From positions 2,420,501 through 2,484,500 of the forward strand of contig NZ_JASPFK010000001.1 of the NCBI RefSeq assembly GCF_036855935.1: a stretch of DNA of 64,000 bases. The letters run 5' to 3'. This stretch comes from Sphingomonas sp. LR60. Its GTDB lineage: Bacteria > Pseudomonadota > Alphaproteobacteria > Sphingomonadales > Sphingomonadaceae. Of this stretch, positions 26,381-54,107 are shown piece after piece. Both the position numbers and the translations under genes were made by a program. The notes beneath the pieces are model-generated. The model had not been told where the DNA came from. It saw nothing but the letters and a program-made list of their open reading frames with translations, and ran no database searches. Numbering within the stretch: position 1 is the first letter of the stretch; every line of letters begins with the position of its first letter.

Positions 26381-27840
26381 GTGCGGCGCGTGTTGCTTAT
26401 TTTCGTGCTGCTCGCCGCTGGATGTGCGCGGCATGAACCCTCCCCGCCCCGCCGCGCGTCGAAAGCGCGATCGCGCCGTTCCCCGACCAGACGTCGACGA
26501 TCGTCGTGCCCGTCACCGCGCGGCTCGACCAATTGGAACGCGGGCTCGACAAGCGCACGCCCAAGGTGCTGTGGACGATCGACGAACATCGCGACAAGTG
26601 CGTCAAGGGCAAGCGCGTCGACCTCGGCATCGGCAAGGTTAAGGTGACGCCCGATCTTGGGTGCCGACTGGTCGGGCAGGTCACCCGCGGCACGATCCGC
26701 GTGGCGGGGCGTGGCGAGCGGCTGGACATCACCATGCCGGTCTCCGCCGTGATCCATGTCCGCGATATCGGCGGGGTGTTGGGCGAGACCGTCACCGCGC
26801 GTGCGATGGTGCACGCGACCGGCAAGCTGGCGATCGTCGGCGACTGGCAACCACGTGCGACGCTCGATCTCGCTTATGGCTGGCGCGAGCCGCCAGGGAT
26901 CGAGATCGCCGGGCAGCGGATCACCTTCACCAGCCGCGCCGACCAGAAGCTGAAACGCGTGGTTGAGAAGCTGGAACGCGACTTGCCCGGCGAAGTGGCG
27001 AAGCTCGACCTGCGCGGGCAGCTCGCGGGCGCGTGGCAACATGGCTTTACGGTCATCGAACTCAGCAAGCGCAATCCGCCGGCGTGGATGCGCGTCGCTC
27101 CGCGAACTCTTGGTGTCGGCGGCTATCGGATCACCGGGCGCGAGCTGCAGTTGACGCTGGCAGCCGAGGCATTGACGCAGACCTTCGTCGGCAAACGTCC
27201 GGACGACCCGACGCCGACCCCGCTGCCACGACCGTCGCGGATCGCCGGTCAGCCGGGCCTACGCTTCTTCATCCCGGTGCTGGCCGATTACGCGCAGCTT
27301 GAGCCGGTGGTGCAGCGCACGTTGCGCAAGCTGGCGGCGAAGGGCATCTCGCTGACCGCCGTCGGGCCGGTCGACGTCGATTTCGGAAAGGTCACCGTCT
27401 ACGCAACCGCCAACAATCGACTGGCGGTGGGCGTGACCGCGCGCGTCGTGCCGCGCGACCGCCGCTTCCCGGCGACCAGCGGCGAGGCGTGGCTGACGGC
27501 CCAACCCTATAACGAGGAAAACTCGCAGCTGGTGCGCGCGCGCGATGTGCAACTCGCCGCCGACACCGATTCGGATGCGGTCGACCTGATCGTCAGCCTA
27601 CTCGACGCCACGCAGGTCCAGCAGGCGGTAGCGGTGGCGTTGCAGCACGACTTCGCGCCGGATTATAAGCAGGTGCTTGCCAAGGCGCAGGCGGCGATCG
27701 GTGCGCGACAGGAGGGCGACTTCTTCCTGTCGACCGATGTGGCGCGCGTGACAACCGGCCGGTTGCAGGTGACCGGCGCCGGGCTGTTCCTGCCGGTGCG
27801 TGCGGAGGGCGCGGCGCGGATCGCCTATCGGCCACGCTGA
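26381..27840 (+). pseudogene. DUF4403 family lipoprotein, frameshifted after the signal peptide
   Basis: The DUF4403 body (about 450 residues) is intact from about 26461 to 27840, with VGGYRITGRELQLTLAAEAL and LRFFIPVLADYAQLEPVV typical of this envelope protein family of unknown function. The expected lipoprotein signal, VRRVLLIFVLLAAGCARHEP with lipobox LAAGC, starts at GTG 26381 behind GGAGACCGGC but in another frame. Adding one C to the run at 26442-26445 joins them as HEPSPAPPRVESAIAPFP, giving 486 residues. As written, only a version from GTG 26506 lacking the export signal can be made. It is either a sequencing error or a real loss of secretion. Confidence 0.75.
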
Positions 27841-27885
27841 TCCGCGCCGCGATCGGCGGCGCCGAGCGCTGACGAACGACGGCGC

Positions 27886-29373
27886 TCAGAAGCCAGCGTA
27901 ATCCGAGAAGCGGGTGATCGTCGGGTCGAACTTGAGCACCACCTTGCCCGTCGCGCCGTGGCGCTGCTTGGCGACGATCAACTCGGCCAAGCCATAGACG
28001 CGCTCCATGTCGGCGGCCCAGCGCGCGTGATCCTCGAACACCTTGGCCTCGTCGCCTTCCATCGGGCGCTTGGGCTCGCGCTGCGCGGTGTAATAATCCT
28101 CGCGGAACACGAACCACACCATGTCGGCGTCCTGCTCGATCGACCCCGATTCGCGCAGATCCGAGAGCATCGGGCGCTTGTCCTCGCGGCTTTCGACCGC
28201 GCGGCTGAGCTGCGACAGCGCCAAGACGGGAACGTTCATGTCCTTGGCCAAGGTCTTGAGCCCACGCGAAATCTCCGAAATTTCCTGCACGCGGTTGCCA
28301 TCGCCCTTGCCCGACCCGGTCAGCAGCTGGAGATAGTCGACCACCACCAGCCCGATCTCGTTATTGTGTCGCCGCTGGAGCCGCCGGACGCGGGTGTGCA
28401 GCGAGGCGATCGTCAGGCCGCCGGTGTCGTCGATGAAGAAGGGCAAGTTCTCCAGTTCCGCCGCGGCTGCCGCGAGCTGCTCGAACTCGGCCTTGCTGAT
28501 CTTGCCCATGCGCAGCGCCTCGGAACTGATCCGCGACTGTTCGGCGAGGATACGCGTCGCGAGCTGGTCGGCGCTCATTTCGAGGCTGAAGAACGCGACT
28601 TTCGCGCCGACCGACTTGGACGGCGGAATGCCGTCGCGCATGTCGCGCATCCAGCGTTGCGCAGCGTTGAAGGCGATGTTGGTGGCCAGCGACGTCTTGC
28701 CCATACCGGGACGGCCGGCAAGGATCATCAAGTCCGAATGGTGCATACCGCCGATCTTCGAATTGATCGAGTCGAGCCCGGTGGTGACGCCGCTGAGGTT
28801 GCCGCCCCAATTCAGCGCCTTCTCGGCCATCTTGACCGCCATCGTACTGGCTTGCGCGAAGCTCTTGACGCTGTTCTCGGCTCCGCCGTCGGCGGCGACG
28901 CGGTACAGCTCTTCTTCCGCGGCCTCGATCTGCGCGCGCGGATTTACCTCCTCGCTGGTGTCCATCGCGCGGTCGACCATCGAATGCCCGACCGAGACGA
29001 GCGTGCGCAGCATCGCGAGATCATAAATCTGCGTCGCGAACTGTCGCGCGCCGATCAGCCCCGCGCCCGACCCGGTCAGGGTGGCGAGATAGGCGACCCC
29101 GCCCAGCTCCTTCATCCCCTCGTCAGCCTCGAACATCGGCCGCAGCGTGACGGGCGTGGCGAGCATGTCCTGTGATCGAAGTGACTTGATCGCGGCGAAG
29201 ATGCGCCCGTGCACCGGCTCGTAGAAGTGCATCGGCTCGAGCCGGTCGACGATGTCGTCGGCCAGCCGGTTGTCGATCATCATCGCGCCGAGCATCGCGG
29301 CCTCCGCCTCGACGTTGCGGGGCAGATGGACGGGTTCGGCCGAAGCCGGTTGCGGGAATGCCAGAGTCGCCAT
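27886..29373 (-). CDS. dnaB: Replicative DNA helicase DnaB
   Basis: 495-residue hexameric helicase that unwinds DNA ahead of the replisome. The N-terminal domain (about 18-120) is followed by the RecA-like domain with Walker A AGRPGMGKTS (219-228), Walker B VVVDY (343-347), the FFSLEMS motif and DLRESGSIEQDADMV. The length is typical and there is no intein. I chose ATG 29373 because it begins MATLAFPQP shortly before the conserved PRNVEAEAAMLGAM; the frame is open far upstream but that part is the antisense of the divergent gene. It is convergent with the DUF4403 gene and divergent from the UPF0262 gene. Confidence 0.95.
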   Translation of the reverse strand: MATLAFPQPASAEPVHLPRNVEAEAAMLGAMMIDNRLADDIVDRLEPMHFYEPVHGRIFAAIKSLRSQDMLATPVTLRPMFEADEGMKELGGVAYLATLTGSGAGLIGARQFATQIYDLAMLRTLVSVGHSMVDRAMDTSEEVNPRAQIEAAEEELYRVAADGGAENSVKSFAQASTMAVKMAEKALNWGGNLSGVTTGLDSINSKIGGMHHSDLMILAGRPGMGKTSLATNIAFNAAQRWMRDMRDGIPPSKSVGAKVAFFSLEMSADQLATRILAEQSRISSEALRMGKISKAEFEQLAAAAAELENLPFFIDDTGGLTIASLHTRVRRLQRRHNNEIGLVVVDYLQLLTGSGKGDGNRVQEISEISRGLKTLAKDMNVPVLALSQLSRAVESREDKRPMLSDLRESGSIEQDADMVWFVFREDYYTAQREPKRPMEGDEAKVFEDHARWAADMERVYGLAELIVAKQRHGATGKVVLKFDPTITRFSDYAGF

Positions 29374-29457
29374 TTCCCCGGCTATAGTCGATCGTGGCGC
29401 CTCGCATAACCGGGATCGACGTTGTCGCGGCGCGACTTCGGCTTTAACGGCACACGG

Positions 29458-29940
29458 ATGGCCGATCCGCGGATCATCGACATCGAACTCGACGAGCGCA
29501 CGATCCTGTGGCGCTCGGCGGATATCGAGCAGGAACGGCGGATCGCGATCTTCGACCTGATCGAGGACAATCATTTCGCGCCGCAACGCGAAAATGCCGA
29601 CGGTTATGCGGGACCGTATCGCGTCAAGCTGGGCGTCGAGGAAGGGCGGCTGGCGATTCATATCGCGCGCGAGGACGGGACGCCTCTGGAGACGCTGGTG
29701 CTGGGTCTGGCGCGATTCCGGCGACCGATCCGCGACTATTTTGCGATTTGCGACAGCTACTTCCAGGCGATCCGCCAATCGACACCCGCGCAAATCGAGA
29801 CGGTCGACATGGCGCGGCGGGGGATACACAATGAGGCGGCCGAGCTGCTCCGCGAGCGGCTGGACGGCAAGATCCATATCGATTTCGACACGGCGCGGCG
29901 GCTGTTCACGCTGATCTGCGTCCTGCACATCAAGGCTTGA
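29458..29940 (+). CDS. UPF0262 family protein
   Basis: 160 residues matching UPF0262, a conserved alphaproteobacterial family of unknown function. Seen: the N-terminal DPRIIDIELDERTI, EQERRIAIFDLIEDNHFAP and RRGIHNEAAELLRERL. The ATG at 29458 matches family starts; TTG 29422 upstream in frame is less likely. It is divergent from dnaB and followed after 10 bp by the GH25 gene, so the two are probably co-transcribed. No catalytic motif is evident; cytoplasmic by lack of any signal. Confidence 0.88.
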   Translation: MADPRIIDIELDERTILWRSADIEQERRIAIFDLIEDNHFAPQRENADGYAGPYRVKLGVEEGRLAIHIAREDGTPLETLVLGLARFRRPIRDYFAICDSYFQAIRQSTPAQIETVDMARRGIHNEAAELLRERLDGKIHIDFDTARRLFTLICVLHIKA

Positions 29941-29950
29941 GTTACTGATT

Positions 29951-30646
29951 ATGTGGGGTTTGGGACGGCTCGTGCTGGTTCTGGCCGCGTTGGCGCTGGC
30001 CGGTGTGGCGGGGTGGCGGCTCGCGGTGCGCTGGGCGCCGGGGATCGAGAAATATCCGCTGCAGGGCGTCGACGTGTCCGAAAATACGGGCACGATCGTG
30101 TGGCCGGTGCTCAAGGGTGCGTCAGGAGCGCGCTTCGGCTACGCGGTGGCGACGGTCGGTGCCACGACGCGCGACCGCAACTTCCAGGCGAACTGGGATG
30201 CGATGGCGAAGGTCGGGCTGACGCGCGGCGCGGTGCACGTCTTCTCCTTCTGCCAGTCGCCGCGCGTGCAGGGCGACGTGTTCAACACCGTCGTGCCGCG
30301 CGACCTGAAGGCACTGCCGGCCGCGATCGCGTTCGATTACGACCCGACCTGCCCCGACCGGCCCGAGCGCGCCGCGCTGATCGCCGGGGTGCGGGCGATG
30401 ATCGAGCGGATCGAGGCGCATATGGGCAAGCCGGTGGTGCTGCGCATCGCCGGCCGGGTCGAGGACGATTACCGGCTGACCGAGGCGCTCAACCGCAAAT
30501 GGTGGGCGATGGGCAATTTCCTGAAGCCGGGCTATGGCACGCGGCCGTGGTCGATGTGGCGCGCCAGTGACATGCGCGGCGTCGACGGGGTCGACGGGCC
30601 GGTCAATTGGGATGTCGCGACAGAAGGAGCCTTCGAGAATGAGTGA
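29951..30646 (+). CDS. GH25-family lysozyme-like protein, membrane-anchored
   Basis: 231 residues: an N-terminal membrane helix (about 4-22) and a GH25-type domain expected to cleave peptidoglycan in the periplasm. Seen: QGVDVSENTGTIVWPVL (about 38-54) with the catalytic-type Asp41, FDYDP at 128-132, and the C-terminal PVNWDVATEG. At the second active-site position the family normally has DxE; here it is Asp129-Tyr-Asp131, so the usual glutamate is an aspartate and activity may be altered. Two plausible structural cysteines occur at 101 and 134. The stop overlaps the presumed cdd start. Confidence 0.78.
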   Translation: MWGLGRLVLVLAALALAGVAGWRLAVRWAPGIEKYPLQGVDVSENTGTIVWPVLKGASGARFGYAVATVGATTRDRNFQANWDAMAKVGLTRGAVHVFSFCQSPRVQGDVFNTVVPRDLKALPAAIAFDYDPTCPDRPERAALIAGVRAMIERIEAHMGKPVVLRIAGRVEDDYRLTEALNRKWWAMGNFLKPGYGTRPWSMWRASDMRGVDGVDGPVNWDVATEGAFENE

Positions 30647-31084
30647 CGCCCCCGGCTGATCGCCGCCGCCCGCGATGCGGCGCGCCATGCGCACGCGCCT
30701 TACTCGCGCTTCGCGGTCGGGGCGGCGGTGTTGCTGACCGACGGCAGCGTGGTGACCGGGGCGAATGTCGAGAATGCCAGCTACGGCCTGTCGCTGTGCG
30801 CGGAGACGGTGGCGATCGCGACCGTCGCCGCGCAGGGTCGGCTGCGCGAGGTGGTCGCGGTGGGCGTGATCGGTGGTGCGATGGATGCCGAGGGGCGCGC
30901 GCGCGGCGATCAGCCGGTGCGGCCTTGCGGGCGGTGTCGGCAGGTGCTCAACGAGGCGGCGCAGCTCGGCGGGCGCGATGTGGCGGTGCATTGCGCGGGC
31001 GCGGAGGGCGAGGCGGTGGCGAGCTATCGGCTGAGCGAACTTTTGCCCGATGCGTTCGGGCCGGGGGATCTGGGGATTTCGTGA
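30639..31084 (+). pseudogene. cdd: Cytidine deaminase with a frameshift in codon 5-6
   Basis: Zn-dependent deaminase of cytidine and deoxycytidine in pyrimidine salvage. The domain is complete: APYSRFAVGAAV, NASYGLSLCAETVAIATV with the Cys-Ala-Glu site, and PCGRCRQVL with the two other Zn cysteines. The natural start is ATG 30639, overlapping the GH25 stop, but it reads MSDAPG then TGA. Adding one C to the five-C run 30649-30653 gives MSDAPRLIAAARDAARHAHA and a 148-residue protein of normal size. As written, only a start at GTG 30728 is available, which would lack the first helix. A sequencing error or a recent loss. Confidence 0.8.
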
Positions 31085-31110
31085 CGCGAACCGCAGGACA
31101 CTCGCCCCCC

Positions 31111-31190
31111 CGTTCGTGCTGAGCCTGTCGAAGCACGTGAGAGAAGCGCAGCGCCTGCAACACGCACTTCGACAAGCTCAGTGCGAACGG
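31111..31190. repeat. Dispersed inverted repeat, family B, copy 1
   Basis: CGTTCGTGCTGAGCCTGTCG at the left is matched by CTTCGACAAGCTCAGTGCGA at the right, ending ACGG. It belongs to the second palindromic family of the window (others at 46020, 46360, 47159 and 53834). It lies directly after cdd. Confidence 0.75.
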
Positions 31191-31273
31191 ATCGGATGGT
31201 TGTCCGGTTGGGATGGCTGACACATGCACCGCCTGCCCGTGGCGATCCGCTCGCTGAACTCGACAGACATGGG

Positions 31274-31291
31274 CCCCTGCCTTCGCAGGGG
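31274..31291. repeat. Short hairpin CCCCTGC-CTTC-GCAGGGG (family E)
   Basis: Perfect 7-bp stem with a 4-nt loop, 21 bp beyond the 3' end of tRNA-Leu on the minus strand. It could serve as the tRNA terminator, but no T-run follows on that strand. Confidence 0.5.
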
Positions 31292-31311
31292 CGACCGGCC
31301 TTTTGTCTGGG

Positions 31312-31395
31312 TGGTGCGGGCGGTCGGACTCGAACCGACATGTATTGCTACGGCAGATTTTGAGTCTGCTGCGTCTACCATTTCGCCACGCCCGC
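31312..31395 (-). tRNA. tRNA-Leu (anticodon CAA)
   Basis: 84-nt class II tRNA on the minus strand. Acceptor GCGGGCG/CGCCCGC with discriminator A and encoded CCA; anticodon stem GCAGA/TCTGC around loop CTCAAAA, giving CAA; a long variable arm CGTAGCAATACAT with a GTA/TAC stem; T-arm GTCGG TTCGAGT CCGAC. All stems are fully paired. Confidence 0.95.
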
Positions 31396-31470
31396 GCGTG
31401 CGACCGGCGGCGCTATAGGACAGCAATTCGGCGCTGGCTAGGTGTCGCTGTCTTGACCCATCACCCGCTC

Positions 31471-31736
31471 AGGGTCTGTACTCAATCGCCAAAAGGATCG
31501 TGATCGCCGGTGGAAGGCCGCCCACAAGGAGCGCAGCGCAGCCGGGTAGCAGAGCTACCCGCAAGCAAGCGACGATGCTGGGCGGTCTTCCACCGGCGAC
31601 CGCGAGCGGCGGGCGGCTTTGGCGCCAAGCGGCGTCGCGCGTCGGTCACGATGCGAGAGCATCGCTCCCTCCTTGCTCCTGGCCTGGCGCCAAAATCCGC
31701 TCCGTCACGACCTTGTGGCGATTGAGTACAGACCCT
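31471..31736. mobile_element. MITE-like element with 20-bp perfect terminal inverted repeats
   Basis: 266 bp bounded by AGGGTCTGTACTCAATCGCC (31471-31490) and its exact reverse complement (31717-31736); with a one-base gap the similarity extends about 13 bp further inward. The interior holds more inverted repeats: GCCGGTGGAAGGCCGCCCA (about 31507) against a one-mismatch complement near 31579-31597, GGGTAG-CAGAG-CTACCC, TTTGGCGCCA against TGGCGCCAAAA, and ATGC-GAGA-GCAT. No coding frame is credible. No target-site duplication is visible. It is probably a non-autonomous transposon moved by an insertion sequence elsewhere, or a structured repeat transcript. Confidence 0.7.
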
Positions 31737-31769
31737 AGGCGTCATCGCAGGTCGCCATAGGAGAGCTGC

Positions 31770-33697
<1,928 letters not shown>

Positions 33698-33762
33698 GGG
33701 ATGGATCCCCCTCCCCTTCAGGAAAGGAGCTTGTTTCGATCACGGTGACAAGCACACGAGAC

Positions 33763-33827
33763 TTGGCAACCCCTCGAAGTTAGCGCTATCTTTTTCCGGC
33801 TCGCCGCGGCGGGACGCGAAAAAGATA
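33763..33827 (+). promoter_or_regulatory. Promoter with LacI-type operator and leader inverted repeat
   Basis: -35 TTGGCA (33763-33768), 18-bp spacer, -10 TATCTT (33787-33792). The near-perfect palindrome GTTAGCGCTATC (33779-33790) overlaps the -10; TTAGCGCTAA-like sites are known LacI-family operators of sugar genes in Caulobacter and sphingomonads. TATCTTTTTC (33787-33796) and GAAAAAGATA (33818-33827) form a 10-bp inverted repeat around a GC-rich centre, so the leader may fold. Regulator not in the window. Confidence 0.5.
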
Positions 33828-33844
33828 ACGATGGAGGGATGGCC

Positions 33845-34783
33845 ATGACGAGGCGCAAGGTTCGTAACGGGTGGGTCGCAGGCTGCGCGGTGTTGCTGCT
33901 GTCAGGGGCGGCGTCGACCGCGCTGGCACAGGCTGACAAGATGACGCCGATCGAAGCTCCGGCGCAGCCGACCGCGATCACGCTCGACACCGGGCCTTTG
34001 CCCGATGCGCCGAACAAGGAAGCGTGGCACCGGCAATATGGCAGCACCTTCACGCGCAACGTGACGGTGGCGACGCTGACGCCGTTCCTCCCCGCCCCCG
34101 GCACTGCGACCGGCGCGGCGGTGGTGGTCGCGCCGGGCGGCGGCTTCCGCACGCTGTCGATGGAGAATGAAGGCTGGGATGTCGCCAAGGCGCTGGCGAA
34201 GCGCGGCGTGGCGGCGTTCGTCCTCAAATACCGGCTGAACCAGACGCCCGCCGATATGCCGGGCTTCGAGAAGTCGATGGGCGAGATCTTCTCCAGCTCC
34301 GCACCCCGTCCGCGCGTCGATCCGACCGCAATGACCGCTCGGCTCGGGCCGCAGATCGCCGATGCGCGCGCCGCCTTCACGCTGATCCGCCGCCGCGCCG
34401 CCGAATGGAAGGTCGATCCCGATCGGATCGGCATGATCGGTTTTTCGGCGGGTGCGATGCTGACGATGGCGACGACGCTCGCCGGCGGGGACGCGAAGCC
34501 GGCGTTCGTCGCGGATATCTATGGCCCGCTCGGCGCGATGGACGTGCCCGCCGATGCCCCGCCGCTGTTCATCGCGCTGGCGGCGGACGATCCGTTCTTC
34601 GCCAACGACGGGATCGGGTTGGTGGACAAGTGGCGCGCGGTGAAGCGGCCGGTCGAGTTCCACCTCTATGAGCAGGGTGGGCACGGTTTCGGCATGTACC
34701 AGAAGCCGACGACGAGCACCGGCTGGTTCGACGCCTATGTCCGCTGGTTGGGGATGCACGGGTTGCTGGCGGCGAAGAAGTAA
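33845..34783 (+). CDS. Secreted alpha/beta-hydrolase (acetylxylan-esterase/peptidase S9-like)
   Basis: 312-residue exported esterase-type enzyme. A twin-positive N-terminus and hydrophobic core (MTRRKVRNGWVAGCAVLLLS) ending in AQA form the signal peptide. Seen: GGGFRTLSMENEG oxyanion region, nucleophile Ser201 in GMIGFSAGAML, acid Asp248/249 in AADDPFF and His280 in GGHGFGMY. The pattern matches bacterial BD-FAE/endo-xylanase-associated esterases that remove acetyl groups from xylan-type polysaccharides. I prefer ATG 33845 over 33839 because GGAGGG then has correct spacing. The upstream LacI-type operator supports a sugar-regulated role (inference). Confidence 0.82.
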   Translation: MTRRKVRNGWVAGCAVLLLSGAASTALAQADKMTPIEAPAQPTAITLDTGPLPDAPNKEAWHRQYGSTFTRNVTVATLTPFLPAPGTATGAAVVVAPGGGFRTLSMENEGWDVAKALAKRGVAAFVLKYRLNQTPADMPGFEKSMGEIFSSSAPRPRVDPTAMTARLGPQIADARAAFTLIRRRAAEWKVDPDRIGMIGFSAGAMLTMATTLAGGDAKPAFVADIYGPLGAMDVPADAPPLFIALAADDPFFANDGIGLVDKWRAVKRPVEFHLYEQGGHGFGMYQKPTTSTGWFDAYVRWLGMHGLLAAKK

Positions 34784-34801
34784 CCGCTAGCGAGCCGCGC
34801 T

Positions 34802-34877
34802 CGTCATTGCGAGCGTAGCGAAGCAATCCAGGGCGTCCTGGTCCGGCTCTGGATTGCTTCGCTGCGCTCGCAATGAC
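34802..34877. repeat. Family A repeat, copy 3
   Basis: Full-length copy: CGTCATTGCGAGCGTAGCGA, centre CCAGGGCGTCCTGGTCCGGC, right arm CTGGATTGCTTCGCTGCGCT to AATGACA. It occupies the gap between the convergent esterase and TonB receptor genes and could terminate both by hairpin. Confidence 0.85.
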
Positions 34878-34887
34878 AGCGGGAGCG

Positions 34888-37716
34888 TCAAAGGCGGAAG
34901 CGGATGCCGAGCGAGTAATAGCGCCCTTCCTCGCGGACATCGACCGGATAGCCGGCGTCGGCGGCGAAGTTGCGGTAGTTGCGCCACGGCTGCGCGAGGA
35001 TGTTGCTGACGTCGGCGGTCAGCGTGATGTTCTCGAACGGCGTGTAGGAGGCCGAGAAGTCGAGCCGCGAGATCGGCCGCACCGTCACGCCCGCGAACTG
35101 CGCCTCGTCCGGATTGCGGGTGAAGCTCTCCACATATTCGGAGCGGCGATTGTACGAGAGCCGCGCGGAGATCGGGCCCTTTTCGTAGAAGCCGGTGGCA
35201 TTGTACGTCCACTTCGACACGCCGGTGATCGGCACGGTCGGCGCCGCCTCACCCAGCGACGACGGCAATTGGTTGGTGCCGTCAAGATAGGTGACGTTGA
35301 GCTGCGTGCCGAAGCCGCTGAGCAGGCCGGGCAGGAAGTCGAAGAAGGTCTGGAAGTTGGCCTCTGCGCCCTTGATGCGTCCCGAGCCGGCATTTTCCGG
35401 GCGCGAGACTTGCAGGCGACCATAGGTCGGGTCCTGCACGATCGACGTATAGTTGCTGATGAAGCCGAACAGGTCGCGGTAGAAGACCGAGGCGGTAAAC
35501 GAGCCGGTCGGCGCGAAATACCATTCCAGCGTCGCGTCCCAGTTGTTCGAGGTCAGCGGCACCAGATCGGGGTTGCCGCCGCTGCCGGCCGCATCGAACG
35601 CGCCGCCGGTGACGGTGCTGCGCGTGATGTTGAACGCCGGGTTCAGCTGACCGAAGTTCGGGCGCGTCCGCGTCTCGGTATAGGCGAGGCGGGCCTGCAG
35701 CTTCGGCGTGAACTTCAGCCGCGCGCCGAACGACGGCAGCACGTCGACGTAATTCTGCCGGTTGATCTGCGACAGGAACGAGATGACGTTGTCGGTGTTG
35801 AGCCGCGTCACGCCGCGATAGGTGCCGTCGTTGTTGACGACGCGGACACCCGCGGTGCCGTCGACCTCGATCCCCGCGACGGTGAAGTCGTAGTTCGCCA
35901 TCGCATAGGCGGCGTAGGTGCTTTCCTGCGCGCTGAACCCGCCGTCTTCACGAAGTGCGATCTCTTCCTGGCCGAAGCGCGCCACGCTGTCGCGCAGGTC
36001 GCCGTTGTTGGGATCGCGCGCGATGAGTTGCGGGCCGACCGAATAGGCCAGCGCGCGCAACGCATCGAAGTTCGAACGGATCGCGGCGCGCGACGGCATC
36101 AACCAGTTGCGGAACTGCGCGGCGGGCTGGCGGAAGCCGTCCTCGACCTTCTCGAGCGCGCCGGTCGGCAGGCTGGCGAGCGGGATGCCGAGCGCGTCGG
36201 TGGCGAGGTAGCGGTCGCCCTGCTCGAGCTTCGCGGTGCGCGACACCCAGCGGACGCCGAAGTCGAGCCGCTTGATCAGCGGCAGCTCGGTATCGAGCTG
36301 GAGATCGGCGCGCCACTGATGCCCGCCGCCGGTCGCGTGGTAGCGCTTCTGGTAGAAGCCGCGCCAGATGTAGTTGTCGGGGTTGAGCGCGTCGAAGCCG
36401 GGGAAGGCGAACGATGCGCCACCGTCGCGGTCGAACTCGACATCGACCTGCGGCGACGAGGCGAAGCGCGCGTCGAGGCTGTATTCTAGCTGCGAATAGG
36501 TGCTGTAGGTATAGGCGTAATCGCTGCTGATCTTCGCGCGGTCACCCTTCCATACGAAGCCGATCGCACCCTGATAGGTGTCGGTTCGGTCGTTGAACGT
36601 CGAGCGGAACTGCTGCGGGGCGAGGCCGCCAGTCTTGGTGAGGCTGCGCACCTTGCGCGGGTCGCTGGGGTCGAGGACGACGTTGCTGAGCGTCGGGCGC
36701 GTGCCGTTCTGGCCGGGCAGCGCGAGCGTCTCCGCCTCAAGCAAGGCGGTGAAATTCTCGTTCGACTGTTCGCCGCGATACGCCTGCCACAGCCCGTCGG
36801 CATAGACTTCGAGCCGATCACTGGGGCGCCATTGCAGGCTGCCGTTGACCGACGGACGCGTGCGCGTGCCGGTCGCGAAGTAATTGCCGACCGAATTGGG
36901 GATGCGGAAATCGGTGCCGACGCCCGGCGTCGTGACGTTCAGATCGTCGGTGGCATTGTTGACGTCCCCGATCGGGGTGCGGGTCGTCTGGTCGTTGAAG
37001 CGGACCGCGTTGCGATAGCGGGTGCGCGTGACCGCGACATTGACCAGCGCGCCGATCTCGCCGATCCCGGTGTCCCAGCGATCGGTGATCAGGATGTTGC
37101 CTACGGGATCGAGCTTGCCCGACTGGTCGTTGTACGCGCCGCGGATCCCGCCCGCGATCTCGAAGCCGGTGAAGTCGAACGGACGACGCGAGCGGACGTT
37201 GACCAGCCCGGCCAGACCCGGCTCGATCAGGTCGGCGGTGCCGGACTTGTAGACCTCCAGCGCGGCGAGTGCGCCGGCCGGGAAGTCCTGAAGCGCGACG
37301 CCGCGGTTCTCGGCAGTGAAGATCTCGCGATTGTTGAAGGTGGTGCTGATATCGCCAAGCCCGCGGATCAGCACGCCGTTCGCTTCGTCGTTCGAGCGGT
37401 TGACCTGCACACCGGTGACGCGCGCCAGCGCCTCGGACGCGTTGTTGTCGGGCAATTTGCCGATGTCCTCGGCGACGACGGCATCGAGGATCGACGTCGA
37501 ATCCCGCTTGAGCGCCTGCGCCGAGCGAAGGCTGGCACGCACGCCGGTCACGACGATGTCGTCGGCAGCGGGACCGGTCGACGCGACGGACGACGTCGGC
37601 GCGACCGCACTTGCCTCCTGCGGCAACGGTGCATCCTGTGCGGCAGCGAGACCCGGCGTCAGCGCCGTTCCGGCGAGCAACGCCGTCCGGAACAGGGTTT
37701 TCATCGTCGCCTTCAC
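34888..37716 (-). CDS. TonB-dependent receptor
   Basis: 942-residue outer-membrane receptor. Signal peptide from the GTG start at 37716 (behind GGGAGAG; ATG 37704 in frame is the alternative), cleaved near AAAQDA. TonB-box-like DDIVVTGVRASLRSAQALK, plug with RVTGVQVNRSNDEANGVLIR and GVALQDFPAGALAALEVYKS, then a large barrel ending EEGRYYSLGIRFRL with the terminal aromatic/Leu signature. It belongs to the same carbohydrate-type class as the receptor at 7599 but is only distantly similar in the barrel. No neighbouring enzyme reveals the substrate. A strong promoter with a palindrome lies upstream. Confidence 0.92.
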   Translation of the reverse strand: MKATMKTLFRTALLAGTALTPGLAAAQDAPLPQEASAVAPTSSVASTGPAADDIVVTGVRASLRSAQALKRDSTSILDAVVAEDIGKLPDNNASEALARVTGVQVNRSNDEANGVLIRGLGDISTTFNNREIFTAENRGVALQDFPAGALAALEVYKSGTADLIEPGLAGLVNVRSRRPFDFTGFEIAGGIRGAYNDQSGKLDPVGNILITDRWDTGIGEIGALVNVAVTRTRYRNAVRFNDQTTRTPIGDVNNATDDLNVTTPGVGTDFRIPNSVGNYFATGTRTRPSVNGSLQWRPSDRLEVYADGLWQAYRGEQSNENFTALLEAETLALPGQNGTRPTLSNVVLDPSDPRKVRSLTKTGGLAPQQFRSTFNDRTDTYQGAIGFVWKGDRAKISSDYAYTYSTYSQLEYSLDARFASSPQVDVEFDRDGGASFAFPGFDALNPDNYIWRGFYQKRYHATGGGHQWRADLQLDTELPLIKRLDFGVRWVSRTAKLEQGDRYLATDALGIPLASLPTGALEKVEDGFRQPAAQFRNWLMPSRAAIRSNFDALRALAYSVGPQLIARDPNNGDLRDSVARFGQEEIALREDGGFSAQESTYAAYAMANYDFTVAGIEVDGTAGVRVVNNDGTYRGVTRLNTDNVISFLSQINRQNYVDVLPSFGARLKFTPKLQARLAYTETRTRPNFGQLNPAFNITRSTVTGGAFDAAGSGGNPDLVPLTSNNWDATLEWYFAPTGSFTASVFYRDLFGFISNYTSIVQDPTYGRLQVSRPENAGSGRIKGAEANFQTFFDFLPGLLSGFGTQLNVTYLDGTNQLPSSLGEAAPTVPITGVSKWTYNATGFYEKGPISARLSYNRRSEYVESFTRNPDEAQFAGVTVRPISRLDFSASYTPFENITLTADVSNILAQPWRNYRNFAADAGYPVDVREEGRYYSLGIRFRL

Positions 37717-37764
37717 TGCATCTCTCCCACCTCCGCGATCCCGCTCGCGGCGTTTATTAATCAG

Positions 37765-37793
37765 ACATAATGCGGGGAGGATTGACGCGTCAA
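37765..37793 (-). promoter_or_regulatory. Promoter of the TonB receptor with palindrome over the -35
   Basis: On the minus strand TTGACG (37793-37788), 17-bp spacer, TTATGT (37770-37765; TATGTC with an 18-bp spacer is equivalent). The -35 is half of the perfect 12-bp palindrome TTGACGCGTCAA (37782-37793), a plausible operator. The start codon is about 50 bp downstream. Confidence 0.6.
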
Positions 37794-37954
37794 CATCATC
37801 AAGCCTTCACATAGCGTGAAATTGCAAGATTTAGCGGCGTGATTGTAGCTTGTTAACCACACGTAACAGCAGCGGGAGCGGCGGGAAACGGATCGGCTTG
37901 TCTGACATTCAGCGCATGTGAGCGCAGAGTTCAGGAGGGGAGAACCTCCGACGA

Positions 37955-38119
37955 TCAGCTTCGAAACTCGGCGACGACCGAGGCGGCGCGATCGGCCTTC
38001 GCGCGATAACCCGCGGCCATGGAGTCCAGGAACGCGCTGTCGCCGCGTGTATCGAGATGACGTGCCAACCGGCTGTAGCGGTCAGCCTGTGCGCGCAAAT
38101 GAGAGATAACAGTTTCCAC
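37955..38119 (-). CDS. Small helical protein of about 54 residues
   Basis: A frame from GTG 38119 to TGA 37955 reads VISHLRAQADRYSRLARHLD and then GDSAFLDSMAAGYRAKADRA. The heptad-like pattern of Arg/Ala/Leu resembles the many small helical hypothetical proteins of alphaproteobacteria of the type LREQAxRYRxLA...DPxxxxALxxLAxExExxAA. It lies 45 bp after the glcB stop in the same direction. There is no convincing ribosome-binding site at the GTG, and the frame is open upstream into the glcB stop region, so the start is uncertain; translation could be coupled to glcB. Function unknown. Confidence 0.4.
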   Translation of the reverse strand: METVISHLRAQADRYSRLARHLDTRGDSAFLDSMAAGYRAKADRAASVVAEFRS

Positions 38120-38164
38120 AAATGCGCAGCGGATGAAGAAAGATTCCGTTCCTGATGCTCGCCG

Positions 38165-40261
38165 TTATGGGTCACCAACCAATTTACCATTACGGCGATA
38201 TTCATGGAGCACCGGCTCGGTATAGCCATTCGGTTGCGCCAACCCTTTGAAAACAAGTGATCGTGCCGCCTGCATCGCCAAACTATCAGATGTGAGCGGA
38301 CGATAGATCGGATCCGCGGCATTTTGCTCATCGACCCGCGCCGCCATGCGCGTGAAGGCCGCATCGACCTGCGCGGCGGTGGCGACACCGTGATGCAGCC
38401 AGTTGGCGAGATGCTGCGACGCGATGCGCAACGTCGCGCGATCCTCCATCAGCCCGACGTCATGGATGTCGGGGACCTTCGAACAACCGATGCCCTGATC
38501 GATCCAGCGCACGACATAGCCGAGGATGCCCTGCGCATTGTTGTCGAGTTCGTCGGCGACCTCCTGCGCCGACCAGTTGTGCCCCGCCGCGAGCGGGATC
38601 GTCAGCAGCGCGTCGAGCGGCGCGACCGGCTCGATCGCCCGCGCCGCCTGGCGTGCGGCGACCGACACGCGATGATAATGGGTGGCGTGGAGCGTCGCGG
38701 CGGTCGGTGACGGCACCCAGGCGGTGGTCGCTCCGGCACGCGGGTGCGCGATCTTCTGTTCGAGCATGTCGCGCATCCGATCGGGCGCGGCCCACATCCC
38801 CTTGCCGATCTGCGCCCGTCCCGCGAAGCCGCACGCCAACCCGATCTGGACGTTGCGATCCTCATAGGCAGCGATCCACGCGGCATCCTTCATCTGCGCC
38901 TTGCGAACCATCGCGCCCGCCTGCATCGACGTATGGATCTCGTCGCCGGTGCGATCGAGGAAGCCGGTGTTGATGAAGACGACACGGTCGCGCACCGCAT
39001 GGATGCAGGCGGCCAGATTGGCGCTGGTGCGGCGTTCCTCGTCCATCACGCCGACCTTGATCGTGTGGCGCGCGAGCCCGAGCAGATCCTCGACCGCATC
39101 GAACAACCGGTCGGTGAACGCCGCCTCGTCACGGCCGTGCATCTTCGGCTTGACGATATAGATCGCACCGGCGCGCGAATTGGCCCGCGCACCGCCGAGA
39201 TCGTGGAGCGCGATCAGGCTGGTGAGCGCGGCGTCGAGGATCCCCTCCGGCGCTTCGCTGCGATCGGGCAGCAGGAGCGCGGGGGTGGTCATCAGGTGCC
39301 CGACGTTGCGGACGAACAGCAAGGCGCGCCCCGGCAGCGTGAACGGCGTGCCGTCGGGCGCGACATAGGCGCGGTCGGCGGCGAGCCGGCGCGTGAGCGC
39401 CGCGCCGTTCTTGGTGAAGGTTTCCGCCAGATCGCCGCGCATCAGCCCCAGCCAGTTGGCGTAGGCGGCGACCTTGTCCGCGGCATCGACCGCCGCAACC
39501 GAATCCTCAAGGTCGCAGATCGTGGTCAGCGCCGATTCGAGGATCACATCGCTCAGCCCCGCCGGATCGTTGCGGCCGATCGGATGCGCACGGTCGATGA
39601 CCAGTTCGATATGCAGCCCGTGATGGCGCAGCAGCCAATTGTCGCCGGCCCGCCCCGCAAGCTGTGTCGGGTCGGCAAGCGCGGGCGCGTCCCCTGCCCA
39701 GTCGCGCCAGCTTCCGTGTGCGAGCGGCAACGCATCGTCGAGGAAGTCGCGCGCCCAGCCGATCACCTGCGCGCCGCGCGCCGGATCGTAGCCGGGGCCG
39801 GCGGGCGTGCCCGGCAACGCGTCGGTGCCGTACAGCGCATCGTACAGGCTGCCCCAGCGCGCGTTCGCCGCGTTGAGCAGGAAGCGCGCGTTGAGGATCG
39901 GGACGACGAGTTGCGGCCCGGCGACGCGCGCCACTTCGTCGTCGACCGCACCGGGCGCGATCGTGAACGGCGCGGGTTCGGCAACAAGATAGCCGATCTT
40001 GCGGAGGAACGCCTGATAGCCGGCGTGGTCGTGCGGCTGCCCGGTGCGCGCACGATGCCACGCATCGATTTGCGCCTGCAACGCGTCGCGATGCCGGAGC
40101 AGCACAGCATTCTCGGGGGCGAAGCGCGCGTAGAGGGCGGCCAGGCCGCGCCAGAAGGCGTCGGCGGCGATGCCGGTGCCGGGCAGCGCACGGTCTTCGA
40201 CGAAGCTGGCGAGTTCGGCGGCGACATTCAGTCCGGCGCGATCGGCATAAGGGTCGGTCAT
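38165..40261 (-). CDS. glcB: Malate synthase G
   Basis: 698-residue monomeric enzyme condensing glyoxylate with acetyl-CoA to malate in the glyoxylate bypass or glycolate use. Diagnostic G-isoform text: [68 protein letters not shown], and [20 protein letters not shown] containing the catalytic-base aspartate Asp607. I chose ATG 40261: AGGAGG lies 9 nt before it, while the ATG at 40270 directly abuts the Shine-Dalgarno. It is divergent from a LysR regulator that probably controls it or an adjacent function. Confidence 0.95.
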
Positions 40262-40353
40262 CGTCCACATCCTCCTGACCGACAGCCTTAACCGGCTTGC
40301 GATCCTGTCGGTAGCAGGCAAAGGTTCCAAACACCTTTTCCCGTGGAGAACGA

Positions 40354-41298
40354 ATGCTCGATCCCGATTACGTGCTGTTCGCGCAAGTGATCGAGGCCGG
40401 CAGCCTTTCGGCGGCCGCGCGCGCGCTCGGTATCTCGCCCGCGATGGCGTCGAAGCGGCTGGCGCGGCTGGAGGCACGGTTGGGCGTGCGGCTGATCCAG
40501 CGCACGACGCGGCGGCTGGCCGCGACGGATGCGGGCGAGCGTTTCCATGCCGACGTCAGCGCGATCCTGCACGAGATCGCCGCGGCCGAGGCGCGGGTGA
40601 CAGGCGTCCGCGACGAACCGGCCGGAGTGCTGCGCGTCTCCGCGCCGACCTCGTTCGGACGGTTGCACATCGCGCCACGTCTCCACGACTTCCTGCGCGC
40701 CGCCCCGCGCGTGTCGCTGGAGCTGAACCTGACCGATGCCAATGTCGATCTGGTCGCCGAGCGCGTCGATGTCGCGGTGCGGATCGCGCGCGACATCCCG
40801 CCAAGCCTGACCGCGCACCGGCTCGGCAGCAGCCCGCGGCTGTTGTGCGCCGCGCCCGCCTATCTCGCCGAACATGGCCAGCCGCGCACGCCCACCGACC
40901 TGCTGCGACACCGGCTGCTTGCCGCCGAGGGACAGTGGCCGTGGCAATTGGTCAACGGGCGGCGGCGAGAGGCGATCGACGCACAGAGCCATGTCCGCAC
41001 CAATTCCAGCGAGATCGTGCGCGAGCTGGCGCTGGCCGGAGTCGGGATCGCGTTGCGATCGATCTGGGACGTCGGCGATGCGCTGGCAGCGGGGCGGCTG
41101 GTCGCGGTGCTGCCCGGTTGGGAAGGCCCGCGCGATCTCGCGATCCACGCGCTGCACCCCCGTGCGCCCGCGGTGCCGGCGGCAGTGACGGCATTCGTCG
41201 CGTTCCTGAAGAAGACGCTCGACCCGGCGCCGTGGTCAACCGGGGGCGTAGCGGGAGATCGGGATCGCGATCAGGCAGCGGACGCCATCCGCGCCTAA
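40354..41298 (+). CDS. LysR-family transcriptional regulator
   Basis: 314 residues. N-terminal winged helix-turn-helix (about 1-60: [20 protein letters not shown] and [20 protein letters not shown]), then a periplasmic-binding-protein-like effector domain ([20 protein letters not shown]...). It is the CrgA/PA-type LysR group with short linkers. The gene is divergent from glcB across 92 bp, the standard arrangement for a LysR regulator and its target; glyoxylate or C2 metabolism is therefore a reasonable guess. The last about 20 codons overlap the 3' end of the convergent kinase gene by 63 nt and look like non-conserved tail. Confidence 0.9.
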
Positions 41299-43850
41299 CG
41301 CGAACGAGGTTCGCGCGCCGAGTTGATAGGGCAAGGCGCGCTCGATCAGTTCGCGGCCCTCGCCCGAGCCGAGCGGCGCGGTATCGGCCGGCGGCATCGC
41401 AACGCCGGTCTCATGCCAGTCGATGTGCAGCCAAGGCGTCTGATCCTCTGCCGGCACGACCGCCCAAGTGATCGACAAGCGCCCGCCCGCCGCGCCGAGC
41501 GCGCCATATTTCACCGCGTTGGTGGCGAGTTCGTGGAGCGCCATCGCCAGCGTCTGGACGATCGACGACCGCAGGCGCACGCCCTTCGGCCCGGCGCGCG
41601 TGACCGCGGTCGCCTCGCCGTCGAGCGCCGCCAGCTCCGCGTCGAGCAGGCTGTCGAAGGTGACGCGATCATCGTCGGACAATCGCGACAACAAGCCCTG
41701 CACGCGCACCAGCGCCTGCAAGCGATCGCCGAAGCGTTGGCGGAAATCGGGCAGGTCACGGCTCGACCGCGCGCTCTTGTCCGCGATCACGCGCACCACG
41801 CCGATCAGGTTGCGGGTGCGGTGCTGGAGCTCGGCGATCAAGACCTGCTGGCGCTCTGCCCAGGCGCGCCGTTCGGTGACGTCGATGATCGCGCCGACCA
41901 TCCGCACCGGCTGCGCGGCCTCGTCGAAGAAGAAGCGCCCGCGCGCGGAATGCCAATGGAGCGAGCCATCGGGATGGACGACGCGGAACTCCTGCGCATA
42001 GGGACGCCCCCGCCCATCGCTTCCTCCATCAGCGTCTCCGCCTCGGCGCGATCGTCGGGATGGAGGCGCGCCAGCCATGCGTCATAGCTTGGCTCGACCG
42101 AGCCGACCGCATAGCCCTGAAGCTGGTAGTGTTCGGCCGACCAATGGACCTCGTCGGTGGCGACGTTCCAGTCCCACAGGCCGATCCCGCCGACCTCGAC
42201 CGCGTTGCGCAGCCGCTCCTCGCTGCGGGTCACCGCCTCGCGCGCGTGGCGCGACGCGGTCACGTCGGAGGTGATGCCGCCGATCAGCACCACCTGCCCC
42301 TTCGCGTCGCGGATCGGGAATTCGGTGGTCCGCAACCAACGGGTCGCATCGTCGGACGCGCAGCGGATCCGGTAATCGACCGTGACATGCTCGCCACCGC
42401 GCACCCGCGCGACCGCCGCTTCGACGCGCGCGCGGTCCTCGGGCAGGATCAACGCCAGCCAGTTGCGATAATGGTCGCCCGTCAGCACCACGCTGCGCCG
42501 CTGGCCGTAGATCGTGCGGAACGCCGGAGTGACGTAGCGCCAGCGCAACGTGTCGGCATCGCGGATCCACAAGGCGTCGCGCGAGGCGTCGCCGAACAGC
42601 CGCAGCAATTCCTCACGCTCGCGCAGCCGTTCGGTCGCCTGCCGCTGTTCGGTGACGTCGAAGACGACGCCGTGCAGGATGCGCGTATCCGGCCCGTCCG
42701 CACGCCCGCGCCACCGCAGCCAGCATCCCGCGGTCGGGCCGGCGACGATTTCCAATTCGCCATCCAGCTCTTCGCCCGGCACGATCCTGCGTTCGATGAA
42801 GCCGTTGACGGCGGCACGCCCGACCGGCGACAAACGGGCGCGGAATTCCGCCGCCGCGCGCGGCTCGTCGCTGGCCGGCATGCCCCACAAGGCGAAGAAG
42901 CGCGCATCGCCGCGCACCTCGCCGCTCGCGAGGTCGACGCGCCACGCCCCCATGCCGCCGCCGTCCAGCGCGATGCGGCGCATTTCCTCGCTGCGCCGGA
43001 CGACCTCGGCGGCGGTGCGGCGCGCGGTGACGTCGATCCCGCTGCCGAACCATTCGATGACCTGGCCCTGCGCATCGACGACCGGTAACGCGCGTGACGC
43101 GACCCAGCCGATCGAGCCGTCGGGGCAGCGGATGCGATGCTCCAGCTCGAACATCGACGGCCCGTCCAGTGCGGTGGCGATCGCGGCGAATACTGCGCCG
43201 CGATCCTCGTCAGGGATGAAGCGCTCCACCCAGTCGCTGACCGGCGCATCGACGTCGAGCAGCATCTCGCGCCCCTCCAGCCGCAGCAGCTGGCTCCAGT
43301 CGGCGCTCATCCGGAACAGCATGTGGCGGCCGGTCGCCGCCATCATCCGGAGCTGCGCCTCGCGGTCGCGCAATTCCGCGGTGGTGCGACGGTGATCGGT
43401 GACCTCGACCAGTTGCTGCAACGCGCCGGCGACCGCCCCGTCCGCATCGCGCACCGGGATCCAGGTGAGATCGAAGGTGCGGCACTGGAACTCGCCGTTC
43501 GCATCGCGCAGCGCTGCCTCGCGCCCGGCGACCTCCACCGCCTGCCCCGTCCAGACGGTCGCTAGCCGGCGCGCGACCTCCTGATTGTAGATCTCGCTCC
43601 ACCCCTCCCACACCGGGCGGCCGAGCAACGCCGGATGCCGGTCACGCGCGATCTCGATATAGGCGTCGTTATAGAGTTGCAGCAGCGCGTCGCCCCACAG
43701 CAACGTCGCGGGACGCGGCATCGCGAGCATCGTCTCGATCGCCGACATCAGCTCGGCAGGCCAGTCGGTGAGTGCGCCCAGCGCGGTGGCCGACCAGTCG
43801 AAGGCGCGGATGCGCGCCGCCATGTCTCCGGTGCCGAACGGTCGCGTCAT
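41236..43850 (-). pseudogene. HWE-family PAS-domain sensor histidine kinase, frameshifted
   Basis: Multi-PAS cytoplasmic kinase. The first frame (ATG 43850 behind GGAG) has at least four PAS/PAC units (for example RIRAFDWSATALGAL, FELEHRIRCPDGSIGW, VDYRIRCASDDATRW, GGIGLWDWNVATDEVHWS). At the five-C run 42007-42011 (G run on the coding strand) the frame breaks; one added base reads EEAMGGGRPYAQEFRVVHPD and continues through PAS to the HWE kinase core: LIAELQHRTRNLIGVVRVIA with the phospho-His, HELATNAVKYGAL, and the IDWHETG (W-x-E) motif. Corrected length 871. As written sensor and kinase halves are separate. No cognate regulator is adjacent except the OmpR pair divergent upstream. Confidence 0.82.
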
Positions 43851-43986
43851 CACTGGCTCCATCCCGTCAGCAAAGCGCCAACATTAAACTTTAGCAAGAT
43901 AAGCCTTTGGCGCTGCAAGCATGATAGCCGTCCGGCCGCCGATCCGATAGTGTCGGTGACAGTCATCAACATGGCGAAAACCGATC

Positions 43987-52809: not shown

Positions 52810-53755
52810 ATGGACCAGAAAGATGTGGCAGCAGCCGTCGCCTCGGTGGCCGGAACCCGTGCGACCGTCCGAATCGAGGGACAGCGGATCGGCGTGGTGA
52901 TCGACGCCGCAGGGCTCGACGCGACCGCGCGCGACGCGCTGGAAGCGAGCGTGCGGATGGCGGCGGAGCGGCCGGGCTATGAGGTGCGCACCGTCGTCAC
53001 CGCAGAGCGTGTCGCGCGCCGGATCATCGCGGTCGCCAGCGGCAAGGGCGGCGTCGGCAAGTCGACGCTGTCCGCGAATCTTGCGATCGCGCTGGCCAAG
53101 GCCGGGCGGCGCACCGGGCTGGTCGATGCCGACATCTATGGTCCGTCGCAGCCGCGGCTGATGGCGGTGGAAGGCACCCGACCCGAGGCGCGCGACAAAG
53201 TGTTGCTGCCGGTCGCGACGCCTTATGGCGTGCCGCTGTTGTCGATGGGGCAGTTGGTCGAGCCCGGCCGCGCGATCGCGTGGCGCGGACCGATGACCGC
53301 GGGCGCGCTGGGGCAGTTGATCGATGCCGACTGGGGCGCGACCGACACGTTGGTGGTCGACCTGCCCCCCGGCACCGGCGACGTGCAACTGACGATGGTG
53401 CAGAAGCATCGCCCGGCGGGTGCGGTGATCGTCTCGACCCCGCAGGACCTCGCGCTGATCGACGCACGCCGCGCGATCGACCTGTTCGAAAAGGCAGGCG
53501 TGCCGATCATCGGGCTGGTCGAGAATATGGCGGGCTATTCCTGCCCGCATTGCGGCGAAGTGTCGGATCCGTTCGGTCACGGTGGTGCGGAGGCGGCGGC
53601 GCGAGAGGCGGGGATTGCGTTTCTGGGGCGCGTGCCGCTGGATATCGCGATCTCGCACTGCCTCGGACGCGGGGCAGCCGCCGGCGGCGCTGGCGGACGA
53701 CCGCGTGTTCGCTCCGATCGCGGCGCAGGTCGCGGCGTGGCTGGCGGCGGGGTGA
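52810..53755 (+). pseudogene. mrp: Mrp/ApbC-type Fe-S cluster carrier ATPase, frameshifted near the C-terminus
   Basis: P-loop NTPase that delivers [4Fe-4S] clusters. Seen: N-terminal MIP18-like part, deviant Walker A SGKGGVGKST (77-86), DIYGPSQPRL, AWRGPMTAGALGQLIDADWG, VVDLPPGTGD and cluster-binding Cys245/Cys248 in GYSCPHCGE. After LDIAI the frame runs into SHCLGRGAAAGG. Removing one T at 53653 gives IRTASDAGQPPAALADDRVF and a normal end AAQVAAWLAAG at 53755, 314 residues. As written the product reaches 53781 with an altered last about 40 residues; the essential core is intact, so it might still function. Sequencing error or recent mutation. Confidence 0.85.
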
Positions 53756-53833
53756 GTGGGTGTGTGCCGCTGCGGAGTTGATCCGGGGGCTGTTGTTCGT
53801 GCGGTGGGGCGGTCGAACATCATGCGCGCGCGG

Positions 53834-53866: not shown

Positions 53867-53968
53867 GTGGGGGAAACCCGGCACCTATGGTGAGGGCGAG
53901 GCATCTCCTCACACGTCACCCCAGGCTCCCACTTCCTCTTTCACGCGCGTGAGGAAAAAGAAGCGGGG

Positions 53969-53987
53969 CCCCGGATCAAGTCCGGGG
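53969..53987. repeat. Family C hairpin CCCCGGATCAAGTCCGGGG
   Basis: 7-bp perfect stem with a 5-nt loop, the same element as the hairpin at 3619. TGACG follows, as in many sphingomonad copies. Confidence 0.65.
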
Positions 53988-54002
53988 TGACGAGGACAAG
54001 AT

Positions 54003-54107
54003 CGTCATTGCGAGCGTAGCGAAGCAATCCAGGGCCGGATCAGGACGCCCTGGATTGCTTCGCTACGCTCGCAATGACGGGACTAACCCAATTGCTCGCA
54101 ATGACGG
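54003..54107. repeat. Family A repeat, copy 6, with an extra right half
   Basis: A full copy at 54003-54079 (arms CGTCATTGCGAGCGTAGCGA and GCTCGCAATGACG, centre GGCCGGATCAGGACGCC identical to copy 7) is followed by an additional ATTGCTCGCAATGACGG at 54091-54107, a partial second unit. Confidence 0.85.

Follow-up and report, generated by a model that had tools for sequence, protein, structure and literature searches.

Probable homopolymer errors and four interrupted genes of Sphingomonas sp. LR60

In nanopore sequencing, deletion errors under-read the length of homopolymer runs, chiefly beyond four to five bases, and in assemblies derived from PacBio reads, G/C runs of 4-10 bp have been found one base short, as stated in those parts of PMC11649196 that deal with such errors. 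Assembly errors that fragment genes, with deletions mainly after runs of four to five bases, are described in a section of PMC12007338, and for nanopore assemblies of Brucella, a passage of PMC12392509 mentions two errors potentially linked to the motif GANTC. The assembly of Sphingomonas sp. LR60 shows a comparable picture. In a stretch of 64,000 nucleotides (the window; positions 2,420,501-2,484,500 of contig 1, in a genome of 3.94 Mb with two contigs and a completeness of 98.57%), four genes change their reading frame at C runs: those of a DUF4403 lipoprotein, cytidine deaminase (cdd), acetate--CoA ligase (acs) and an HWE histidine kinase. Judged by sequence comparison, it is almost certain that these are consensus insertion or deletion (indel) errors in a long-read assembly that was insufficiently polished, and that the organism itself carries intact genes. 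Like in the nanopore and PacBio assemblies of bacteria covered in the cited parts of PMC11649196 and PMC12007338, runs are shortened by one base, and frameshifts and extra gene fragments result. In the assembly described in PMC12007338, A/T runs yielded the most deletion errors, whereas in LR60, with a GC content of 67%, C/G runs, which are far commoner there, outnumber A/T runs among those affected.

The lipoprotein gene loses its frame at a run of four C (26442-26445, forward strand), and the frame downstream of it (26506-27840) matches PF14356 with 187 bits. In cdd, the frame changes at a run of five C near the start (30649-30653, forward strand), with a match to PF00383 at 30728-31084, and in acs (31770-33697, forward strand) at a run of five C within the gene (33025-33029), the N-terminal piece covering positions 22-428 of NF001208 and the C-terminal piece positions 426-645. 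The kinase gene (about 41236-43862) is on the reverse strand, and five C at 42007-42011, which are five G on the coding strand, separate the pieces matching PAS_3 and HWE_HK. All four runs lie exactly where a preliminary description of this DNA, made from the letters alone, had placed them. It had also proposed a comparison with close relatives, and this comparison bears out the frameshifts: in pairwise alignments, the window lacks one base compared with all five covering related genomes at the DUF4403 site, with four of five at the cdd site (the alignment of the fifth genome, L017, has several small gaps, net four), with all five at the acs site, and with the three covering genomes at the kinase site (S. 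phyllosphaerae FA2, S. endophytica and Sphingomonas sp. 8AM). Relatives present under two records (a metagenome-assembled genome (MAG), FA2 and 8AM) were entered once each in these counts; in the acs region, DNA identity is 92% to FA2 and 90-92% to 8AM, the MAG and S. endophytica. Each of the four genes has a single open frame in both FA2 and 8AM, and the pieces in the window match the families expected. The letter filling the missing position differs among relatives, so that the longer C run is not always present at these sites, and at none is it conserved.

The protein closest to the DUF4403 lipoprotein is that of 8AM (93% identical), and the best 120 of 537 hits have lengths of 440-547 amino acids; among these listed matches, drawn from the 8000 best candidates, no independent copy of the same-species protein was present. 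Plasmid records have identities of 73.9-80.8% among the 20 matches listed, and the overall tally holds one more at 95-99%.

Run shortening and coding indels in the sampled chromosome

The comparison covered 864 kb of the chromosome, namely the window with 400 kb around it and a further 400 kb at 0.6-1.0 Mb, in two blocks about 1.2 Mb apart, together with 800 kb of FA2 and 400 kb of 8AM. When aligned runs with identical flanks are compared, with the relative's run length as the reference, shortening in LR60 is nearly one-sided and rises with run length. C/G runs of three bases in FA2 are shorter in LR60 in 5 of 2794 cases, runs of four in 5 of 590, of five in 7 of 96 and of six in 5 of 12, and the single run of seven is shorter too; only one C/G run of at least three bases is longer (3 to 4). 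A/T runs are shortened in 3 of 12 cases at length five, 3 of 5 at length six and 1 of 2 at length seven, and lengthened in 2 of 66 at length four. Taken together, 13 of the 109 aligned C/G runs of at least five bases are shortened (6 C, 7 G) and none is lengthened, among 21 A/T runs 7 are shortened and 2 lengthened, and among the 30 C/G runs of this size in the control, FA2 against 8AM, one is shortened and one lengthened. Against 8AM, LR60 has one of 23 C/G runs reduced from five to four and two of three from six to five; the control of FA2 against 8AM has 0 of 25 at length five. A division of C/G runs of at least five bases into coding (7 of 81 shortened) and non-coding (6 of 28) was not used, because natural non-coding indels confound it.

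The same shortage appears in plain counts of long runs. C/G runs of at least six bases number 65 in the 864 kb of LR60, 139 in the 800 kb of FA2 and 77 in the 400 kb of 8AM, and those of at least seven bases 1, 21 and 8, respectively. Around acs, 29 Sphingomonas loci of 12-21 kb have a total of 167 such runs of at least six bases in 579 kb, and no locus falls below the rate of LR60. Over the whole genome, LR60 has 19 matches to C7/G7 (overlaps counted), the fewest of 61 genomes; the 36 other Sphingomonas genomes range from 67 to 1958, including one-contig genomes with 248 and 150. The only C/G run of at least seven bases in the sampled 864 kb is an intergenic C7 at 31105-31111 of the window. 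Further one-base shortenings against FA2 are found at 189, 4796, 38184, 52740 and 56108 of the window, of which the first four lie in doubtful open frames of FA2, and all five may be intergenic.

Isolated one-base coding indels are in clear excess in LR60. Against FA2, 41 losses and 15 gains make up 56 in 417 kb over both blocks, and the comparison with 8AM gives 11 in 94 kb, with none in 91 kb between FA2 and 8AM (56 in 417 kb versus 0 in 91 kb, P about 5e-6). Non-coding indel rates are similar, with 229, 219 and 248 per 100 kb for LR60 against FA2, LR60 against 8AM and FA2 against 8AM, and therefore the excess is a property of the LR60 genome that becomes visible where relatives tolerate no indels. 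On the level of genes, with FA2 genes predicted by a simple codon-score method and comparisons kept at a coverage of at least 80%, an identity of at least 80% and at least 55% of substitutions at third codon positions, the two blocks gave 25 frameshift events in 194 comparisons and 13 in 136, together 38 events in 330 comparisons (36 genes; 26 losses, 12 gains), and a looser filter gave 40 events in 227 comparisons for the first block. There were 11 events in 87 comparisons with 8AM genes, and none in 82 when FA2 was set against 8AM genes (looser filter, none in 90). The mirror comparison, with LR60 open frames as the reference, gave 15 events in 218 comparisons and 11 in 139 for FA2 in blocks one and two and 11 in 91 for 8AM, and 26 of these 37 are gains in the relative; most of them are probably identical breaks viewed from the opposite side. 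The events occur in both blocks and in differing genes, as is expected of an artefact spread over the whole genome.

The four sites in the window are ordinary members of this wide class of shortened runs. A local hot spot was rejected, as with 41 coding one-base losses in 417 kb the probability that a given 16 kb holds at least four is 0.075, and the cluster in the window is not unusual because randomly placed losses often give five or six in their densest 16 kb (1512 of 2000 trials). The four events in the window all affect C of the forward strand, but a strand bias was likewise rejected: among the coding losses of the wider sample that leave a run of at least four, 8 are C and 12 are G (P = 0.50).

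The events also hit glutamate synthase (gltB), miaA and the core genes rodA and clpP (names from the FA2 proteins). For rodA and clpP, no intact second copy was found elsewhere in the genome; each was found solely as a pair of pieces that lie in different frames, and the one other rodA match is a relative at 32% identity. On either side of the break, the protein matches of both are 87-98% identical to FA2. A living rod-shaped cell without rodA and clpP, both of which are considered essential, is unlikely. Ferrochelatase was dropped as a further example, since its break at residue 13 could be start-codon variation.

Insertions at GANTC

One-base gains form another class of events, and one of them lies in the window, where it had been missed in the earlier reading: mrp/apbC (52810-53781, forward strand) has one extra base at 53653, in a GATCTC string, and is there longer than five of five related genomes. 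This fifth break is thus of a different kind, an insertion, by which the C-terminal frame is lost, the ParA match stopping at residue 289 (of 323), at position 223 of the 246 in the profile. At this particular site, the relatives have no GANTC. Among the isolated LR60 insertions against FA2, 7 of 40 form GATCTC or GAGATC, compared with 1 of 93 for the opposite direction (P about 0.001), and at 6 of the 40 sites FA2 carries GANTC, versus 0 of 93 in reverse, all P values being optimistic here, as the pattern was noticed and tested on the same or overlapping DNA. Against 8AM, 2 of 6 insertions form GATCTC or GAGATC and 1 of 6 falls on GANTC (reverse, 1 of 27 and 0 of 27), and between FA2 and 8AM, the GATCTC counts are 0 of 8 in one direction and 0 of 14 in the other, with no GANTC case in the 8. 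An approach via raw k-mer counts was abandoned as too weak, and the aligned insertions were used instead.

GANTC is the motif of CcrM. LR60 has a CcrM-like methyltransferase gene with N6_N4_Mtase and RAMA domains, which matches positions 2-349 of the 350 of NF050803 with a score of 615 bits, under the curated cut-off of 830, and the genome encodes two additional N6_N4 methylases. The insertions are concentrated at the motif of a putative resident methyltransferase, and the pattern suggests nanopore miscalling at methylated bases. This is similar to Brucella, where, according to PMC12392509, consensus errors are associated with GANTC in alphaproteobacteria with CcrM; two errors potentially linked to the motif are mentioned there, whereas in LR60 6 of 40 insertions are at sites with GANTC in the relative, and these add one base.

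Competing explanations and consequences

Almost certainly, the observations stem from a long-read assembly that was never polished with accurate reads and therefore retained consensus indels. The base caller would under-count homopolymers, and more so the longer they are, so that coding C/G runs of about five to seven bases would drop one base and the frame would change. A second systematic error would insert one base, often at GANTC, which a CcrM-type methyltransferase probably modifies, the modified signal being misread by the base caller. The platform would then more likely be nanopore than PacBio, methylation may well contribute to the insertion errors, and the raw reads can be expected to carry the full-length runs. 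Homopolymer under-calling, which the preliminary description had put forward as the cause, is strengthened by the nearly one-sided shortening that rises with length for both C and G, in coding and non-coding DNA, and also by its presence in two distant blocks and by the genome-wide shortage of C7/G7. Its counter-argument, intact six-base runs, has to be revised. Such runs do exist at 20841 and 53365 (C6 each) and at 33186 (G6, which had been given as starting at 33185), but their weight against an artefact is lost, as the length is preserved in 7 of the 12 six-base C/G runs aligned and intact ones are thus expected; at the places of these three runs, those of FA2 and 8AM are shorter.

Several points weigh against the explanation by assembly errors. 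That some six-base runs stay intact is one of them, and 18 of the 41 coding losses leave a run of fewer than four, so that losses are not confined to C/G runs. The controls are not fully clean, since 8AM against FA2 genes gave 2 events in 66 filtered comparisons and 8 in 79 when the filter was looser, since FA2 against 8AM has two C/G runs that are shorter and two that are longer overall, and since 1 of 14 insertions of 8AM against FA2 lies at GANTC. Some counted events may be natural or errors of the simple gene prediction. The GANTC test has the bias already mentioned, and the raw GATCTC count of LR60 is only slightly elevated (102.5 per 100 kb, the relatives having 96.6 and 100.2).

Real mutations from a strong run-slippage bias, as in a mismatch-repair defect, with many genes lost by frameshift, would also increase with run length and leave the copies of the relatives intact. 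A shortening that is nearly one-sided does not fit well to this, the insertions at GANTC are left unexplained, and rodA and clpP are affected without a second copy having been found, the protein matches on both sides of their breaks lacking the decay expected of dead genes; real slippage is thus very improbable. The completeness of 98.57% argues weakly either way here, many relatives having 99-100%. Still less credible is the wider version in which the living strain truly shortens homopolymers throughout its genome by way of replication or repair, has hundreds of frameshifted genes including core genes, and tolerates frameshifts at runs. For phase-variable (contingency) genes with the C-run length as the switch, it can be said that the C runs are within coding sequence and that a lipoprotein or a sensor kinase is a plausible type of target; as four or five bases make a short run, the C run is not conserved among relatives, events occur in both blocks, and housekeeping genes (acs, cdd, gltB, clpP, rodA) are hit, this possibility is extremely remote. 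Programmed frameshifting at C runs that preserves protein function would explain why both frames are recognisable around the breaks, but FA2 and 8AM use one frame for each of the four proteins and LR60 has both insertions and deletions in differing sequence contexts, which makes its likelihood practically negligible, although no search for a common slippery motif was made.

If consensus errors are the cause, the LR60 genome probably contains several hundred false frameshifts, as extrapolated from a coding density of 13.4 isolated indels per 100 kb, and claims of gene loss, pseudogenes or missing pathways (e.g. no acetate activation, no cytidine deaminase) are probably wrong. The run-length matrix, a genus-wide C7 count and the GANTC insertion test permit the detection of such assemblies without reads.

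Two other features of the sequence were seen. A short repeat of about 78-130 bases lies at about 53954-54090 of the window, with a similar motif, recognised by eye, at about 34800-34880. A 3 kb query holding it gave 91-107 matches in each of six searched sequence sets from five genomes, many of them listed at 97-100% identity, and the repeat is a dispersed family of the repetitive extragenic palindromic (REP)-like type. In the sampled 864 kb, GCATGC occurs at half its frequency in FA2 and 8AM (158 versus 322 and 324 expected), and CCATGG, with 288, is far above the 108 of FA2 and near the 255 of 8AM, counts that possibly reflect restriction-site avoidance.

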